33,229 nt of DNA. Source: a virus. This document shows positions 2,240-33,184 of this stretch, in pieces. The notes below the pieces were generated by a model, which saw only the letters and a program-made list of their open reading frames with translations, did no database searches and had not been told where the DNA came from. The stretch is taken from positions 1 to 33,229 of IMG/VR virus record IMGVR_UViG_3300009091_000039, one strand, 5' to 3'. The position numbers and the translations under genes were made by a program. Every line of letters starts with the position of its first letter. The stretch's first letter is position 1.

Positions 2240-3088
2240 ATGTCAATTGCAAATTTTATTCCTGAACTGTGGTCAGCTAACATCCTAAGAACACTTGAAA
2301 CAAAGCATGTCTTTGCTTCACTTGCTAACAGGGACTATGAAGGGACAATCAGACAAGCTGGTGACACAGTCAAAATCAACATGCTGGGTGACATCACCAT
2401 TGCTGACTACACAAAGAACACAGACATTGCTGATCCTGAAGCACTGGATGGTGCACAGTCCACCCTTCTGATTGATCAGCAAAAATATTTCAACTTTCAG
2501 ATTGATGACATTGACAAAAGACAACAGATTCCAAAACTCATGGGTGAAGCAACAAGCAAGGCTGGATATGCTTTGGCACAGGCAGTTGATGCTTTCTTTG
2601 CTGGGAAATCTGGTGAGTGTGGAATTGCAAGAAATTCTTCTGGAACACCTGTTGACCTGACTTCAGCAAATGTTGCTGAAGAACTTGCAGGTCTGGGAAG
2701 ACAGATGTCTGATGCTGATGTTCCACTTGCTGGAAGGTTTGTGGTTGTCCAGCCATGGGTGGTTGAAAAGATGGTGCTTGCAGGTCTGACAACAAAGACT
2801 GACAATGCTGGTCTTTGGGTTGATGGTTTCATTGAAAGAATTCTGGGATTTGATGTCTTCATGTCAACAAACGTGGAAGACACTGGTGGTGCAGGTGCAC
2901 AGACAGAAAACATTGCTGGGGTCAGGGGTCAGTCTTTCACTTTTGCTGAACAGATTGTGGAAACAGAAGCATATAGACCACAGAAAAGGTTTGCTGATGC
3001 TTTGAAGGGTCTTCATGTGTATGGTGGGAAAATAATCAGACCAGACATGACAGCTGTCTGGTGGGCTGATTACACAGCTGAAGCATAA
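2240..3088 (+). CDS. Major capsid protein (P22 coat protein-like, HK97 fold)
   Basis: 282 residues. ATG 2240 is preceded by AAAAAAAAGGAAATGACAC. The N-terminus (FIPELWSANILRTLE, then NRDYEGTIRQAGDTVKIN) and the block LLIDQQKYFNFQIDDID are hallmarks of the P22-coat/gene-5-like capsid family that forms the icosahedral shell. Length is a little under the 300-430 residues seen across the family. It follows the scaffold by 24 bases and is followed by a strong hairpin, consistent with an abundant, separately controlled transcript. Confidence 0.9.
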   Translation: MSIANFIPELWSANILRTLETKHVFASLANRDYEGTIRQAGDTVKINMLGDITIADYTKNTDIADPEALDGAQSTLLIDQQKYFNFQIDDIDKRQQIPKLMGEATSKAGYALAQAVDAFFAGKSGECGIARNSSGTPVDLTSANVAEELAGLGRQMSDADVPLAGRFVVVQPWVVEKMVLAGLTTKTDNAGLWVDGFIERILGFDVFMSTNVEDTGGAGAQTENIAGVRGQSFTFAEQIVETEAYRPQKRFADALKGLHVYGGKIIRPDMTAVWWADYTAEA

Positions 3089-11279: not shown

Positions 11280-13214
11280 ATGAAAAATTTTTTGACAAGC
11301 TTGCTTTTTATTATTTCTGTTAATGCACAGAACGTGTGGTATGTTTCACCAAGTGGGAACAATTCAGATGGTTCAACTTGGGAAAATGCTTGGACTAATT
11401 TAGATCAGTTCACTTGGGAAACTGACATCAGTGCTGGGGACACCATTTATGTTGATGCTGGTGATTATGCTGGGGTTGAACTGGTCAGTGGGTTGAATCC
11501 ACAAGAACTGAATAACGGACTAAGAATATATTTCAGCACACAGGTTGTTGTGACAAGGTCTTATGAGGCAGGGCACACAGGAACAGTCAGGTTCATAAAA
11601 GATCAGGCTGAAGAAAGAGCATTCAGAGCATATGGAATTGCAAATGTGAAGTTCAATGGTTTCACGTTTTCAAATATTGCTGATGTATATACTGACAATG
11701 GCAATTATTCAAATTGCACCATTGGATATGACAGTCTGATTGTGATGGATAGTTGCAGGTTTGTGACAATTGGAAATCCTTCAGCAGTGTTGAACGTGGG
11801 ATATTCAGAGAAAGTCACAGTTCAAAATAGTATTATTGAAACCATGCCGAACACTTATGCAAGGGCTTATGACATCATCACCTTTGGAACAGGAAGGGGT
11901 GGAATAACTTTCAAGAACAACAGCATTATTCAGAGAAGTGCTTATTCTGGGACTTCTGGGACTTCCAATGGTGCTGTCACATTTACAGACACATCACTGA
12001 CTGACACAAGGTTGACTGGTGGTAGTGCATTAGTCCCAAACTATCACAAGCATGGAACAATAACAGTTGGGGATTCTTCCTATTTATTTGTTGACAGCAA
12101 TTCAACCAACACATTTTATGGGGTGGAATGGACTGGTGGTGGGAAACCAGCAGATGGTTCAGCATGGTATGTCAACACAGCACAGCACAGGGACTTTATT
12201 CAGTGGAGTGAGTTTTTGAACACTGACCCTGAATTCAATCTGATAGTGTTTGATAAAAATTTCATGCTGGTGTTGACCCCTGAAGCACATGCTTATAACA
12301 TGTTATTTTACAGTGTCAGTGCATTTCCCCAGTATGGAAGGATGGTTTTCACAAACAACATTCTGGTGGTTGAAACAGCAGGAATCACACCCCTTGAAAA
12401 TTGTGGTGGTCAATATGCAATTCAGAACTATACTGATGTGACAAATGGAACTGGAAGTGGTGTGACAACAGACAACACTTCCCTGACAGACACAGACCTT
12501 GACATGGAAACTGATGTCTTCATAGGTTGCAGGCTGACCTGTGCTGGTGAAACCCTGACTGTGACAAGCAATGACAATGACACATTTTTTGGCACAGAAG
12601 GATGGAGTGGGGAAACACCACCCAGTGGTTCACCTTGGTCACTTGCAACAATTCATGCAAATCATCTGAACTGGACTGTGATAAACAACACTTTCATCAC
12701 CCCAAATGGTGGACTAAGTATTGACCCCTTTGATTCAATGATAGTTAAAAACAATTTTTTCATAGGTGGTTGTGCTACTGATCAGGCGGTGATGGGAATG
12801 GGTTACAGCAACACACACTTTGACACTTCTTTCAAAGATGTTGACTACAATCACTATTGGTTTCCAAGCTGGAACAGCAATGTCAGACAGTTCAGAATCT
12901 ATGGTGGGACTTCCAGAAATTGGGGTGACTGGAAAGCTGAAGGTGTGGATGTGAATTCAGACACTGGACACATAAGTCTTGCAGATGTAAGGGATTCAGT
13001 GATTGCTTCATACATGCCGACAGAACAAATTGCAGGGACTGATGTTTCCCAGTATGGTGTCACCACTGACATCCTTGGCAATGAAAGAACTGTCTGGACT
13101 ATTGGTGCACTGGAATTTCAAAGTGGAACAGGAACTGGAACATTCAAAATTTTGGGTGTGAATGTTTCAAAGGTTTTGGGGATTTCCCCTTCAAAGATTT
13201 TTGGAATTCAATGA
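11280..13214 (+). CDS. Right-handed beta-helix (pectate-lyase-like) spike protein with signal peptide
   Basis: 644 residues. Signal peptide MKNFLTSLLFIISVNAQ, then 'NVWYVSPSGNNSDGSTWENA', the standard opening of secreted parallel beta-helix proteins. Repeated 'FKNNSII', 'VIDSC-F', 'VNNTFI'-type rungs follow. Two related inserts of about 75 residues break the helix (11976-12206 and 12462-12674). The C-terminus carries three short repeats KILGV, KVLGI and KIFGI, each preceded or followed by a Ser, a tail motif also seen on other phage proteins. Such helices often bind or cut polysaccharides, but I cannot identify catalytic residues. Word usage differs from neighbours: GAG triplets, nearly absent elsewhere, occur about eight times, suggesting more recent acquisition. 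The start is 1 base after the preceding stop. Confidence 0.75.
   Translation: MKNFLTSLLFIISVNAQNVWYVSPSGNNSDGSTWENAWTNLDQFTWETDISAGDTIYVDAGDYAGVELVSGLNPQELNNGLRIYFSTQVVVTRSYEAGHTGTVRFIKDQAEERAFRAYGIANVKFNGFTFSNIADVYTDNGNYSNCTIGYDSLIVMDSCRFVTIGNPSAVLNVGYSEKVTVQNSIIETMPNTYARAYDIITFGTGRGGITFKNNSIIQRSAYSGTSGTSNGAVTFTDTSLTDTRLTGGSALVPNYHKHGTITVGDSSYLFVDSNSTNTFYGVEWTGGGKPADGSAWYVNTAQHRDFIQWSEFLNTDPEFNLIVFDKNFMLVLTPEAHAYNMLFYSVSAFPQYGRMVFTNNILVVETAGITPLENCGGQYAIQNYTDVTNGTGSGVTTDNTSLTDTDLDMETDVFIGCRLTCAGETLTVTSNDNDTFFGTEGWSGETPPSGSPWSLATIHANHLNWTVINNTFITPNGGLSIDPFDSMIVKNNFFIGGCATDQAVMGMGYSNTHFDTSFKDVDYNHYWFPSWNSNVRQFRIYGGTSRNWGDWKAEGVDVNSDTGHISLADVRDSVIASYMPTEQIAGTDVSQYGVTTDILGNERTVWTIGALEFQSGTGTGTFKILGVNVSKVLGISPSKIFGIQ
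11976..12206 (+). repeat. Intragenic duplicated insert, copy A
   Basis: Encodes about 77 residues beginning VTFTDTSLTDTRL and containing 'NTFYGVEWTGGGKPADGSAW'. It matches copy B at 12462-12674 in the motifs TSLTDT-L, N-TF-G and WTGG-P--GS-W. The region is probably a small beta-barrel inserted into a beta-helix loop. Confidence 0.65.
12462..12674 (+). repeat. Intragenic duplicated insert, copy B
   Basis: Encodes about 71 residues beginning VTTDNTSLTDTDL and containing 'DTFFGTEGWSGETPPSGSPW'. Homologous by eye to copy A; DNA identity is modest, so the duplication is not recent. Confidence 0.65.
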
Positions 13215-13248: not shown

Positions 13249-13692
13249 ATGTATTTCATTTTGTTTCTTTTTGTGCTTGCTTTGATTGCTGGACACAGGG
13301 AAGTTGAAATCCTTGTGAAAGCACTTCTGTGGACAATGGAAATGACATGGCTGAAGTTCTGGGAAGGTGGGAAAGGAATTTTCAGGATGTTTGATTCATT
13401 CCATTTCATGAATGGACTGTGGTGGTTTCTTGTCATCCTGTTCATCATCACTGAAGTGATCTGGTTTTATTTGTTTCAGGACTTCTTCATTGAAGTCTGG
13501 GTCTTTATTATTTCAAGGGAAATCTGGTGGGTCATTGCTTCTGTCATCCTGAATGTTGTCATCTACTGGCAGACATACATGTGGTTCAGAAATGTTTCAA
13601 TGCACATCATCTTCATGAAACCGAAACACAGACAATGGAAATATATTTTTCCACTTGTTGACTTATATGACAAACTGAAAGGGAAAAAATGA
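13249..13692 (+). CDS. Multi-pass membrane protein of the lysis-like block
   Basis: 147 residues. Hydrophobic segments are at about 2-18 (MYFILFLFVLALIAG), 55-75 (GLWWFLVILFIITEVIWFY) and 80-105, with an aromatic-rich, amphipathic stretch at 28-50. The C-terminus is basic (KLKGKK) and likely cytoplasmic. I do not recognise the family. It is the first of a run of four translationally coupled membrane-protein genes, so a part in host lysis or envelope modification is the best guess. The stop overlaps the next start (ATGATG). Confidence 0.7.
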   Translation: MYFILFLFVLALIAGHREVEILVKALLWTMEMTWLKFWEGGKGIFRMFDSFHFMNGLWWFLVILFIITEVIWFYLFQDFFIEVWVFIISREIWWVIASVILNVVIYWQTYMWFRNVSMHIIFMKPKHRQWKYIFPLVDLYDKLKGKK

Positions 13693-14060
13693 TGTGTGTG
13701 GTCACACAAAATGGAATCAGGATGAATGATGGTTCATTCATCCCATATGACACATCAATTGCTGACATCCATCCAAAGCACATTGATGAACTGTCAAAAA
13801 ATGTTTCTTCTGTCTGGGAAAACTTTTTGATTCATAGACAAATCAAGGAAATGAAAAATGAAATTCTTCCACTTCTTCAGTCAGTTGCTACACACACCAC
13901 TGGTTGTCCTATCAACAGAACAGCTGTGGAAGCAATTGTCCTTGACAAAATGAAATCAGTGGGGAAACAGGGATGGGTGAAAACACTTGACATCATCAAG
14001 AACATCACCCTGATTGCAACAGGAATTCTGGTTGTTTTAAAAATATTAGAAAGGATTTGA
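13689..14060 (+). CDS. Tail-anchored membrane protein (XhlA-like topology)
   Basis: 123 residues; ATG 13689 overlaps the preceding stop, ATG 13692 is an alternative. A soluble, partly helical N-terminal region of about 100 residues (with 'IKEMKNEILPLLQSVATHT') precedes one C-terminal membrane segment, 'ITLIATGILVVLKIL', and the protein ends 'ERI'. Small proteins with a coiled/helical domain and a C-terminal anchor occur next to holins (XhlA type) and regulate or assist them. Sequence similarity to XhlA is not strong enough for a firm call. Confidence 0.6.
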   Translation: MMCVVTQNGIRMNDGSFIPYDTSIADIHPKHIDELSKNVSSVWENFLIHRQIKEMKNEILPLLQSVATHTTGCPINRTAVEAIVLDKMKSVGKQGWVKTLDIIKNITLIATGILVVLKILERI

Positions 14061-14062
14061 AC

Positions 14063-14398
14063 ATGGAAAAATTTTTCATTGAACACTTTGGTCTGGGGTG
14101 GTCACTTTTTGCAATCCCAGTTTTCTCTGGTGTTGTCATGTCTTTTGTTGTCATTGCAATTGACACACTGACCACAGATGCTTTCAAGGGAAGGTGGATG
14201 CTTCTGGGTGCATCCTTTGTTGTGGGTGCTGGTCTGGTTGTGGGTTTCCCCACTGTGTGTGCAACATTGTTTGACAAAATCATTGTGACCTTCCTGAATG
14301 TCCTTTTTGCACTGACATTCTATCACCTGAAGGGGAAGGAACTTGTTGAGTTCATCATCATCAAGGTCTTTGGGAAGGTTCAGAAGAAGGTGGAATGA
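14063..14398 (+). CDS. Holin candidate (three membrane segments)
   Basis: 111 residues. ATG 14063 is chosen because AAAGGA lies 7 bases upstream; a TTG at 14057 is too close. Hydrophobic segments are at about 10-32 (GWSLFAIPVFSGVVMSFVV), 45-65 (LLGASFVVGAGLVVGF) and 70-90 (IIVTFLNVLFALTFY), with a basic C-terminal tail (KVFGKVQKKVE). Size, three-segment topology and neighbours fit a holin that permeabilises the inner membrane at the end of infection. The stop overlaps the next ATG (ATGATG). Confidence 0.6.
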   Translation: MEKFFIEHFGLGWSLFAIPVFSGVVMSFVVIAIDTLTTDAFKGRWMLLGASFVVGAGLVVGFPTVCATLFDKIIVTFLNVLFALTFYHLKGKELVEFIIIKVFGKVQKKVE

Positions 14399-14835
14399 TG
14401 AAAACAATTTTGAAAGCTTTTTATTTGTTTGCACTGGTCTGTGCACTGATGCTTCTGTGGAACTGTTCTTCAAGTCAGCAAGTTTCAGATCAGGTGGTCA
14501 TTGAAACAAGAACAGACACCATCACTGTCTATATTGCAGGAAGAACTGACACAGTCATTGCAGAACCACAGGAACTGTCTGATCTGGGTCTGGTCTGGAC
14601 TGGGAACATTGTGGAAGGTGTTGACACAATTTACAGAATCAAGTTTGTTCCAAGGGACACAATCTTCATCTTTGAAAAACCAAAAGATTCACTGAATGTT
14701 GTCCACCAATATCAGGACACAACATCAATCACACAGACAACAATCATTGAAGAACCAACATTCATTGAACAGTGGTGGTGGTTGATTCTGGTTGTTCTGG
14801 TTCTGGTTCTTATCATTGTCATAAAACTAAGGTGA
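14395..14835 (+). CDS. Candidate unimolecular spanin (lipoprotein signal plus C-terminal membrane anchor)
   Basis: 146 residues. The N-terminus is a basic-hydrophobic signal ending LLWNC-SSS, a candidate lipobox with Cys24 as the lipidated residue (Trp and Asn before Cys are unusual). A periplasmic stretch of about 100 residues rich in Thr/Asp/Ile follows ('TRTDTITVYIAGRTDTVIAE'). The protein ends in a strong membrane segment 'WWWLILVVLVLVLIIVI' with a KLR tail. An outer-membrane lipoprotein that also spans the inner membrane is the architecture of unimolecular spanins such as T1 gp11, which fuse the two membranes at lysis. Directly follows the holin candidate. ATG 14398 is an equally likely start. 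Confidence 0.6.
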   Translation: MMKTILKAFYLFALVCALMLLWNCSSSQQVSDQVVIETRTDTITVYIAGRTDTVIAEPQELSDLGLVWTGNIVEGVDTIYRIKFVPRDTIFIFEKPKDSLNVVHQYQDTTSITQTTIIEEPTFIEQWWWLILVVLVLVLIIVIKLR

Positions 14836-14839
14836 AAAA

Positions 14840-15268
14840 ATGGGAGTAAATAGTTTCAGAAATTATGTGGTGAAAGTATTTCACAAACCAGTGACATTCC
14901 TTGACACTGTTCATTTCAGGGGTGGAAAACCTTACAAATATTATATTGGTTTGATGTCGCAATTATATCAAGATGCACCCACTGTCATAATATTGGAAAA
15001 TACCATTGGTGAAATTGTTTGGACAAGGGTCAACACTGGGGTGTTTCGTGGAACATTGGCAGGTGCTTTTGTGGACAAAAAAACTTGGTGCTATATGAGG
15101 ATGGCACATTCTTCTGTTCCTTCTGTTGTTGGTTATTCCAGCATGAAAAGATATAATGATGATTTTATTGAAGTTACATCAGGGGAGTATGACCCACCAC
15201 CCACAACACTGTGGGGAAGGGATGGAATACTGTGGGAAGTTCCGTTTGAAATCAGGGTTTATCCATGA
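14840..15268 (+). CDS. Uncharacterised protein in the lysis-like block
   Basis: 142 residues, ATG with AAGGTGA upstream. Mixed alpha/beta appearance, with 'YKYYIGLMSQLY', 'TVIILENTIGEIVWTRV' and a C-terminal 'DGILWEVPFEIRVYP'. No signal peptide, membrane segment or known motif. Word usage is less constrained than in neighbouring genes (ATAATATT, two GAG triplets), which may mark separate origin. Its stop overlaps the DUF5675-like start. Confidence 0.7.
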   Translation: MGVNSFRNYVVKVFHKPVTFLDTVHFRGGKPYKYYIGLMSQLYQDAPTVIILENTIGEIVWTRVNTGVFRGTLAGAFVDKKTWCYMRMAHSSVPSVVGYSSMKRYNDDFIEVTSGEYDPPPTTLWGRDGILWEVPFEIRVYP

Positions 15269-15735
15269 TGACATTGAAACTTGAAAGACTGATTGACACT
15301 GGACATGAAACAGTGGGAATTCTATACAACAGAAATCACATTGAAGGAACAGATGAATTTCTGTGCTTCACACTTGAAGATGAAAAAAGAACACAGAAAA
15401 TTTATGCTGAAACCAGAATCCCAGCTGGGACATACAAAATCAATTTAAGAACAGAAGGAAGAATGCACCTGAAATATTCAGGGATGTTTCCAAAAGTTCA
15501 TGTTGGTATGTTGCACCTGACTGATGTTCCAAATTTTGAATTCATTCTGATTCACACTGGGAATGATGAAGATGACACAGCTGGGTGCATCCTTGTTGGT
15601 TCTTATCCAGTGGAATTTGAAGAAGGAAGATTCAGGATTGAAAAATCAACAAAAGCTTATGAAAAAATTTATCATCAAATTGCAAAAGAAATTTCCACAG
15701 GTGGAAATGTTTTCATCACAATCATTGACAACTGA
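15265..15735 (+). CDS. DUF5675-like protein, candidate cell-wall-active lysis enzyme
   Basis: 156 residues; ATG 15265 overlaps the previous stop, ATG 15268 is an alternative. Features match the DUF5675 family: 'FTLEDEKR', 'IPAGTYKI', then 'FILIHTGNDEDDTAGCILVGS', where a His and a later Cys sit in a layout recalling L,D-transpeptidase-type domains (His...Gly-Cys). DUF5675 genes are common in phages infecting Bacteroidota-type hosts, often among lysis or tail genes. A role in peptidoglycan processing is inference. No standard lysozyme or amidase is seen in this window, which makes this the best endolysin candidate here. Confidence 0.7.
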   Translation: MMTLKLERLIDTGHETVGILYNRNHIEGTDEFLCFTLEDEKRTQKIYAETRIPAGTYKINLRTEGRMHLKYSGMFPKVHVGMLHLTDVPNFEFILIHTGNDEDDTAGCILVGSYPVEFEEGRFRIEKSTKAYEKIYHQIAKEISTGGNVFITIIDN

Positions 15736-15737
15736 CC

Positions 15738-16241
15738 ATGGCTGAAAGAAGGGTGATCTGGTTTGGCAAACATGTTTATAAGACCATGAAGGATGCAAAT
15801 GAAAAAGCACTTCTGGTCATGGGTGCATATGGTGCTGGTGTGTGTAAACAACTTGCACCTGTTGACACTGGACTTCTGAAATCTTCCATCACCTATGCAA
15901 CAGCACTGGAACTTGGAAGACCAACACAGGAAGGAAGGGTCACAGCAAAAGACAAGCACATGATTTCACAACCCTCTGAACATTACAGGCTGAAAATTGG
16001 AACAGCTGTGGACTATGCACCCCATGTTGAGTATGGAACAAAAGCACACTTCCCACCAGTGAAGTCACTTGTGGGGTGGGCGAAAAGGGTGCTGGGGAAT
16101 CCCAGACTTGCTTTTGTTGTTGCAAGGGCAATCAGCAAGAAGGGAACAAAAAGACAAAGCTTCTTAAGACTTGGTGTTCTTTCACACAGGAAGGAACTGG
16201 GTCAGATATATTCCAAAGCAATGAAGGGACTATTAAAATAA
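15738..16241 (+). CDS. HK97 gp10-like tail/neck protein
   Basis: 167 residues. ATG 15738 is 2 bases after the previous stop; no strong ribosome binding site, so coupling is likely. 'LAPVDTGLLKSSI' and 'YAPHVEYGTKAHFPPV' are the defining signatures of the HK97 gp10 family, which acts in head-tail joining or tail completion. The C-terminus is basic. The last base of its TAA is the first base of the next ATG. Confidence 0.85.
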   Translation: MAERRVIWFGKHVYKTMKDANEKALLVMGAYGAGVCKQLAPVDTGLLKSSITYATALELGRPTQEGRVTAKDKHMISQPSEHYRLKIGTAVDYAPHVEYGTKAHFPPVKSLVGWAKRVLGNPRLAFVVARAISKKGTKRQSFLRLGVLSHRKELGQIYSKAMKGLLK

Positions 16242-32917: not shown

Positions 32918-33184
32918 ATGATAAAAATTTTCATCAGATTTGTCCCAGCAAGTTTTGTTTATTTGGCTGGGTTTGAACTTCTAAGACATGCAACCATGGG
33001 GAAATATTCTTCACAGGAAGTCCCAGCACTGAAGATGGTGGATGCACTTGACAGGTGGTATGAAGACAGGTTGAAAAAGAAGAAAGAAGATTCCAACTTC
33101 TGGAACTGGGTTTTGTTTGGGGTCATGGTTGTCATTGTCATTTCACTGGTGATGACTGGACTTCAAAGATGGGGTGTCATATGA
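32918..33184 (+). CDS. Small membrane protein
   Basis: 88 residues; ATG with AAAGGAAAAATAA upstream. A weakly hydrophobic start (IFIRFVPASFVYLAGF) and a clear membrane segment near the C-terminus (WVLFGVMVVIVISLVM) flank a charged region. Function unknown. Confidence 0.65.
   Translation: MIKIFIRFVPASFVYLAGFELLRHATMGKYSSQEVPALKMVDALDRWYEDRLKKKKEDSNFWNWVLFGVMVVIVISLVMTGLQRWGVI

Follow-up and report, generated by a model that had tools for sequence, protein, structure and literature searches.

A putative phage lysis cassette with a DUF5675 protein as its candidate wall-degrading enzyme

Results

Gene content of the cassette

We analysed a 33,229-nucleotide (nt) stretch of viral DNA, IMG/VR record IMGVR_UViG_3300009091_000039 (the window, taken at its full length), in which a run of short genes at 13249-15735 encodes a DUF5675 protein together with a candidate holin and a candidate unimolecular spanin (Table 1). 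A sequence-only reading of this DNA had placed a lysis cassette of four genes with coupled starts at 14063-15735, its last gene encoding a DUF5675-like protein that might degrade the cell wall in the place of a standard endolysin. All four open reading frames (ORFs) lie where they had been placed (14063 or 14057 to 14398, 14395-14835, 14840-15268 and 15265-15735). ATGA overlaps of 4 nt couple the starts at 14395 and 15265, so that the proposed coupling holds at two of the three junctions, whereas the third (14835/14840) is a gap of 4 nt. The proposed cassette itself stands, but its upstream boundary does not, as two further membrane genes extend it to 13249. We estimate at roughly 80% the probability that 13249-15735 forms a tailed phage's lysis cassette, with the DUF5675 protein as its wall-degrading enzyme. 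Gene layout, family, predicted fold, residue conservation and the absence of other known lysins from the window and from the scanned ORFs of complete relatives are computed results, given below. The layout is that of an endolysin, in that the DUF5675 protein, lacking a signal or transmembrane (TM) segment, shares its cassette with a holin and a spanin, themselves candidates.

Family and conserved residues of the DUF5675 protein

The product of 15265-15735 is, as had been proposed, a DUF5675 protein: it matches PF18925 with an E-value of 2.4e-30 and 105.2 bits against a Pfam cut-off of 26.7, and it also falls in phrog_1501 (E 5.2e-24), both families being described by their databases as of unknown function. 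A scan of viral contigs returned at least 579 DUF5675 matches. In 118/118 ORFs (117 from viral contigs and that of the window) a His is followed by [ST]-x-Gly-Cys, with the Cys 11 residues past the His, and a TxIPxGxY-like motif is present in every one; part of this conservation is owed to selection, since the search patterns held parts of the scored motifs, one scan pattern including the His while leaving Ser/Thr, Gly and Cys free. The TxIPxGxY-like motif recalls the TPxGxF/Y motif typical of L,D-transpeptidase/carboxypeptidase-type enzymes. Among aligned members, His97 is invariant in 15/15 and, in a wider set, in 31/31, and H, G and C are invariant across 31 diverse members.

The YkuD superfamily motif is given as HXX14-17-(S/T)HGC-hydrophobic, and the site residues of Tlde1a as His121, Ser128, His129 and Cys131 (PMC9638812). 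With a His-to-Thr distance of 8, DUF5675 is near the 7 of Tlde1a, as against 14-17 in the YkuD motif, and (S/T)HGC occurs in only some members, the window protein having TAGC, with Ala and not His before Gly-Cys. When the 31 diverse members were scanned for weak family matches (E <= 0.1), 13 matched Tlde1_dom (best 3.9e-5) and three matched YkuD (best 0.0067). Since these scores stay under the curated Pfam cut-offs of YkuD (PF03734) and Tlde1_dom (PF10908), DUF5675 is a superfamily-level relative and not a member of either family. A phmmer search of DUF5675 against PDB sequences gave one irrelevant match (E 0.32).

Predicted fold and comparison with known systems

An AlphaFold model of the window protein, built from a 15-sequence input, reached a predicted local distance difference test (pLDDT) score of 86.3. 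When Foldseek's 1000 best chains for this model were re-aligned and ranked by Z, the top nine PDB rows were all of the L,D-transpeptidase/carboxypeptidase fold (Z 6.1-8.7), while the next row had a Z of 2.6; the scores were 8.7 for Bd1075, 8.2 for Pgp2, 8.0 for DpaA, 7.8 for Csd6, 6.5 for a Klebsiella L,D-transpeptidase and 6.3 for Tlde1a. As an independent check, a second AlphaFold model was made of a distant Bacteroidales member instead of the window protein (31-sequence input; pLDDT 90.9), for which 35/35 listed rows had the same fold, the best with a Z of 9.3 over 113 residues at 2.9 Å. Such structures are thus top-ranked for both models, in line with the resemblance suggested by the sequence-only reading, and neither pointed to a fold that would lack an L,D-transpeptidase-type pocket. 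The models therefore predict that DUF5675 adopts a fold of the L,D-transpeptidase/carboxypeptidase type (YkuD superfamily).

Bd1075, Pgp2 and Csd6 are carboxypeptidase-type cell-shape proteins and DpaA is an enzyme; all four are exported cell proteins, several with additional domains. These four are the best structural matches of both models and share the same catalytic His/Cys logic, whereas the window protein is one bare domain without an export signal, lies inside a phage cassette and has an identity of 12-16% with them. The likeness to Tlde1, a type VI secretion system effector (PF10908), comprises structural Z scores of 6.1-8.0, the short His-to-Ser/Thr spacing and a weak sequence match that in member 1 of the 13 matching spans nearly the full PF10908 profile; DUF5675 differs in falling below the Pfam cut-off, in having no effector context and, in the window protein, in an Ala at the second motif His.

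A functional hint is already present in public record labels, where depositors call DUF5675 relatives 'peptidoglycan hydrolase' or 'L,D-carboxypeptidase/transpeptidase'. The latter is the label, and a database label only, given to members of the same family in crAss-like phages (cr112_1 and the phiCrAssBcn series); in cr112_1 the gene two places before DUF5675 bears the label 'lysis regulatory protein/holin'. The words carboxypeptidase, transpeptidase and holin were not found in the main text of the phiCrAss001 paper. PhaLP lists a small YkuD class among phage lytic proteins, with 10 entries in its table (PMC8310338); this is the fold class of DUF5675, and the table gives PF03734, PF10908 and cd16913, not DUF5675. 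In the literature searched, which included PMC10671443, PMC9229204 and PMC6235969 and in which the comma in 'L,D-' hampers text matching, we found no functional test of DUF5675; two papers named it, the mentions seen being annotation lists.

Search for another lysin

Besides DUF5675, a Pfam scan of the 47 forward ORFs of the window taken as genes found no lysozyme, amidase or lysin-type peptidase, so the proposed lack of a known wall-degrading enzyme is right for this set, and no standard endolysin was seen within the window. The record is probably incomplete: end repeats of 20-50 nt are lacking, and neither a terminase nor a portal was recognised. We also scanned the hypothetical and small ORFs of five other phages with DUF5675, namely PC11 (42/57 coding sequences), BF766P1 (51/66), two microviruses (8/14) and a Thiohalocapsa phage (47/80), and found no lysin family in them besides DUF5675; for PC11, BF766P1 and the microviruses this holds for the best 25 of 50 families, the remainder of which, by row order, should be single matches weaker than 1.9e-5.

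Across 36 records with DUF5675 (12 annotated and 24 viral contigs, several of them close relatives), a search for eight lysin families gave no endolysin-sized match above cut-off. PF00959, PF01510, PF08291, PF13539, PF01551 and PF00182 each had 0 above-cut-off matches, PF05838 had two, and PF01464 had two above and one below. The four GH108 and SLT matches above cut-off fall in frames of 648-1139 residues (G011, G019, G006, W07), which we read as virion enzymes and not as endolysins. By comparison, PF00959, PF01510 or PF13539 was found in 6/10 capsid-matched phages without DUF5675 as against 0/36 of the DUF5675 records (Fisher P 2.2e-5, or 0.0028 when only the 12 annotated records are set against the controls). 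These P values are indicative only, because the 36 records are not independent and 24 of them are viral contigs; furthermore, the controls were picked by capsid similarity, several come from Gram-positive hosts, and the counts for PF08291 and PF05838 cover the DUF5675 records alone.

Gene neighbours of DUF5675 in other phages

Relatives of DUF5675 recur in similar places in many unrelated phages. DUF5675 genes were located by match coordinates, the ORF itself failing to be recovered in 4/122 loci, and clustering of the viral-contig loci at 70% gave 24 representatives, of which seven were dropped as too near the locus end. A small TM protein lies within two genes of DUF5675 in 11 of the remaining 17, compared with 11 of 66 other genes of the same loci (P 2e-4). 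Moreover, in 8/12 annotated phages DUF5675 has holin-, spanin- or lipoprotein-like neighbours, as judged by eye from hydropathy, lipobox output and record labels (PC11, BF766P1, the Thiohalocapsa phage, Dulem virus 260, cr112_1, GR7B, DAC15 and PCA1). The four without such neighbours are RodF1_11, by the TM rule, and Kuja, 1.244.A and Cygsa01, among which that rule was applied to the neighbours of Kuja only. The relatives found for the gp10-like gene downstream of the cassette, few in number and distant, did not reveal what other phages carry at the cassette site.

Microviridae of 6-7 kb also encode DUF5675 (L047:3650-4254 and L048:3955-4380), and in Dulem virus 260, a 6.4-kb microvirus, DUF5675 overlaps a lipoprotein-like ORF of 71 residues, a possible minimal lysis pair. 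DUF1353 (PF07087) directly precedes DUF5675 in Campylobacter phage PC11 (L130:909-1289, E 6.6e-17) and in Vibrio phage GR7B (L135:3634-3993, E 3.6e-15); since the two phages are unrelated, DUF1353 may be a lysis-cassette gene.

Cellular relatives of DUF5675

DUF5675 is also encoded at 31 bacterial-genome loci, mostly from Bacteroidota. In a Bacteroidales-type group of eight loci (L174, L175, L178-L181, L183, L184) the protein has an N-terminal TM region, and in most of these a gene for 270-290 residues comes before it, that of L181 being an Amidase_2+SH3 protein (E 7.4e-29). Because the membrane-anchored form adjoins this gene, DUF5675 is linked to peptidoglycan outside phages. The wider cluster, conserved at L181:3833-8437 and also in L174, L175, L178, L179, L183 and L184, comprises Amidase_2+SH3 and the anchored DUF5675, together with a gene for a protein of three TM segments; two DUF4230 genes follow (the Amidase_2+SH3 call was checked in L181 alone, and DUF4230 in L181 with one also in L175). 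It is possibly a cell-owned wall-cutting or lysis system. A search of a plasmid collection with the Bacteroidales DUF5675 domain found one Prevotella record.

The predicted lipoprotein 14395-14835 and its neighbours

The sequence-only reading had described 14395-14835 as a lipoprotein with a C-terminal membrane anchor. Membrane prediction did find the anchor, a TM segment at residues 127-145 with a mean hydropathy of 2.91, while the signal, with its basic start, hydrophobic core, Cys24 and following SSS, has the unusual lipobox LWNC. Cys occurs at positions 16 and 24 only, none after Cys24, and T, V, I, Y, F and W make up 46% of the 102 residues of the periplasmic part, a statement about composition only. 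Among the 70 six-frame ORFs of at least 80 residues in the window, this one alone has both a lipobox-type signal and a C-terminal TM segment. Across the viral-contig loci a rule for this architecture, which admitted Asn at -1 and was drawn up with the window sequence already in view, was passed by 3 of 1299 forward ORFs, namely that of the window and one each in L066 and L102, the last two with consensus-like lipoboxes and all three within 1.6 kb of DUF5675. In the bacterial genomes, where the DUF5675 ORF was recovered at 30/31 loci, the rule flagged no neighbour (up to four genes before DUF5675 and three after) in any of these.

Like u-spanins of the T1 gp11 type, the protein has a putative lipoprotein signal, a C-terminal TM segment and no periplasmic Cys (PMC6139136), and it differs from them in its lipobox and in having no sequence similarity that we could find in phages. 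Neither tblastn against phages nor a search of viral contigs found relatives of it. By sequence features it is a candidate unimolecular spanin.

The product of 14840-15268, the unknown protein placed in the cassette by the sequence-only reading, had no family match in Pfam or PHROGs and three relatives at 27-35% identity. Two of these (L143, L144) lie behind long ORFs of tail type, and an NTIGEIVW stretch is common to all three, so this is more likely a virion than a lysis protein; its position within the cassette stands.

At the upstream end, the two added genes gave no match in Pfam or PHROGs, and the second, which has a layout suggestive of a hemolysin/antiholin-like protein, is separated from the start at 14063 by a gap of 2 nt. 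The holin candidate, likewise without a match in Pfam, could alternatively start at TTG 14057, giving 113 residues; a purine-rich agaaagg precedes ATG 14063. Elsewhere, an ORF at 11280-13214 (644 residues, no Pfam match) and one at L041:6447-7850 (467 residues) have N-terminal secretion-type signals and adjoin lysis genes. The major capsid protein of the window (2240-3088) has its nearest relatives, at about 46%, in phages of thermophilic bacteria and a Methanosarcinales-associated virus record. At the end of the record an 88-residue ORF (32918-33184) has two predicted TM segments and a weak SLATT_1 match (E 0.003, below cut-off). Rfam and tRNA scans of the window found nothing.

Table 1 Features of the putative lysis cassette and the gene that follows it (window coordinates; aa, amino acids)
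Feature	Position	Strand	Remarks
Membrane protein, 147 aa	13249..13692	+	Three predicted TM segments; probable first cassette gene
123-aa protein	13689..14060	+	Single C-terminal TM segment; 4-nt overlap with upstream 13249..13692
Holin candidate	14063..14398	+	2-4 predicted TM segments; 111 aa from ATG 14063
Unimolecular-spanin candidate, 146 aa	14395..14835	+	Lipoprotein-type N-terminal signal, C-terminal TM segment
142-aa ORF	14840..15268	+	Probably small virion protein inserted in cassette
DUF5675 protein, 156 aa	15265..15735	+	No signal or TM segment; proposed endolysin
His97 codon	15553..15555	+	Proposed catalytic His
Thr105-Ala106-Gly107-Cys108 codons	15577..15588	+	Proposed catalytic-Cys motif [ST]xGC
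HK97-gp10-like / neck protein	15738..16241	+	PF04883 E 8.3e-5, phrog_5 E 2.1e-9; first gene past cassette

Discussion

Taken together, the predicted fold, the conservation of His, Thr and Gly-Cys, the weak family matches, the gene neighbours and the lack of another lysin support the proposal that this DUF5675 protein is L,D-transpeptidase-like and degrades the wall; on models and sequence, it is most likely the wall-degrading enzyme of the cassette. We infer a Gram-negative, probably Bacteroidota-like host for what would be a tailed phage. At lysis, the holin candidate would open the inner membrane, with the products of 13249-13692 and 13689-14060 as possible holin or antiholin partners, and the DUF5675 protein, which is soluble and lacks an export signal, would then get to the periplasm. 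There, its site of His97 and Cys108, backed by Thr105, would hydrolyse what we infer to be the bond between the L-centre of meso-diaminopimelate (mDAP; position 3) and D-Ala (position 4); in 4-3 cross-linked stems, this mDAP-D-Ala cut would sever the cross-link and free the strands. Some enzymes that share the fold have L,D-endopeptidase activity (PMC12729407). Finally, the product of 14395-14835 would disrupt the outer membrane as a unimolecular spanin.

Several observations weigh against this reading. In the Pfam scan the window protein had no match to YkuD, and its one other suggestive match, to Tlde1_dom, stayed at 17.5 bits (E 0.0059) against a cut-off of 30.1; for neither model did Foldseek alone match a PDB entry at E <= 0.001. 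The known enzymes with the L,D-transpeptidase fold act mostly by trimming or cross-linking stems, so cleavage strong enough for lysis is assumed. As the window is probably incomplete, a normal endolysin could lie outside it. The lipobox of the spanin candidate departs at -1 and -2 from the consensus [LVI][ASTVI][GAS]C (PMC6139136). Furthermore, DUF5675 comes directly after the portal gene in the Vibrio Ackermannviridae Kuja and 1.244.A and in Cygsa01, and Kuja has an SLT-like ORF of 170 residues (L187:3525-4037; annotated hypothetical; E 6e-4, below cut-off). Since that ORF is flanked by two genes annotated as two-TM membrane proteins, it is probably the Kuja endolysin, and the DUF5675 of Kuja, in the head region, is probably not its main one. 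Because 79 of the 180 annotated records with DUF5675 are Vibrio phages, the portal-side position may be common by record count, but it is not general to them, as the DUF5675 of Vibrio phage GR7B lies elsewhere. Some phages thus carry DUF5675 outside a lysis cassette, and our endolysin claim is limited to cassettes like that of the window.

The portal-side genes, and the separate SLT-like cassette of Kuja, would fit an account in which DUF5675 edits the host wall, for example in the course of infection or to counter rival phages, or is carried in the virion, and the true endolysin is either encoded by the part of the genome that is missing or one of the unassigned proteins of the window. Known relatives of the fold do edit the cell wall (PMC12729407). 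We nevertheless consider this account unlikely, given that holin- and spanin-like neighbours recur, that scans of ORFs from PC11, BF766P1, the Thiohalocapsa phage and the two microviruses turned up no other known lysin, and that the eight families gave no endolysin-sized match above cut-off in the 36 records. It is more improbable still that DUF5675 is a head or connector protein that has retained an enzyme-like fold but no activity. The window gene does directly precede head-tail connector genes, most near relatives have DUF5675 right after the same run of small soluble, connector-looking genes, and in some myophages it is portal-adjacent, but an inactive connector protein fits poorly with the His, [ST] and Gly-Cys kept in every one of the 118 ORFs, with DUF5675 in small Microviridae, which have no such connectors, or with the finding that in Bacteroidales chromosomes a membrane-anchored form adjoins an amidase.

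Two further alternatives concern its neighbours. The protein encoded at 14395-14835, a putative spanin, could be something else, such as a superinfection-exclusion lipoprotein, as its off-consensus lipobox and its lack of sequence relatives would allow. This we find rather unlikely in view of its C-terminal TM segment, the absence of Cys past the putative lipidation Cys, its place in the cassette and the same architecture near DUF5675 in the unrelated loci L066 and L102; moreover, according to a 2025 survey, u-spanins are the only kind of spanin in use among Bacteroidetes phages (PMC12596118). Unusual lipoboxes in spanins have been listed, and an AWAC box tested (PMC6139136). That the real endolysin is instead the 142-residue product of 14840-15268, lying between the spanin candidate and DUF5675 with no family assigned, seems barely credible, as its relatives in L143 and L144 come behind long ORFs of tail type and the motif rule detects DUF5675 within 3.5 kb of the match in none of the three.

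With DUF5675 as the candidate enzyme of this cassette, we give even odds to a broader proposal, namely that the family is a large unnamed class of endolysins: one-domain, holin-dependent L,D-endopeptidases that cut mDAP-D-Ala in cross-links and replace lysozymes and amidases, mainly in Bacteroidota phages (both tailed phages and Microviridae), with a membrane-anchored Bacteroidales branch beside an amidase. If this is true, a family of unknown function in Pfam and PHROGs would gain a role, and DUF5675 would be the missing endolysin of many phages that seemingly lack one. Cleavage specific for L,D-bonds, unlike that of lysozymes and amidases, would then join the means by which phages open cells.

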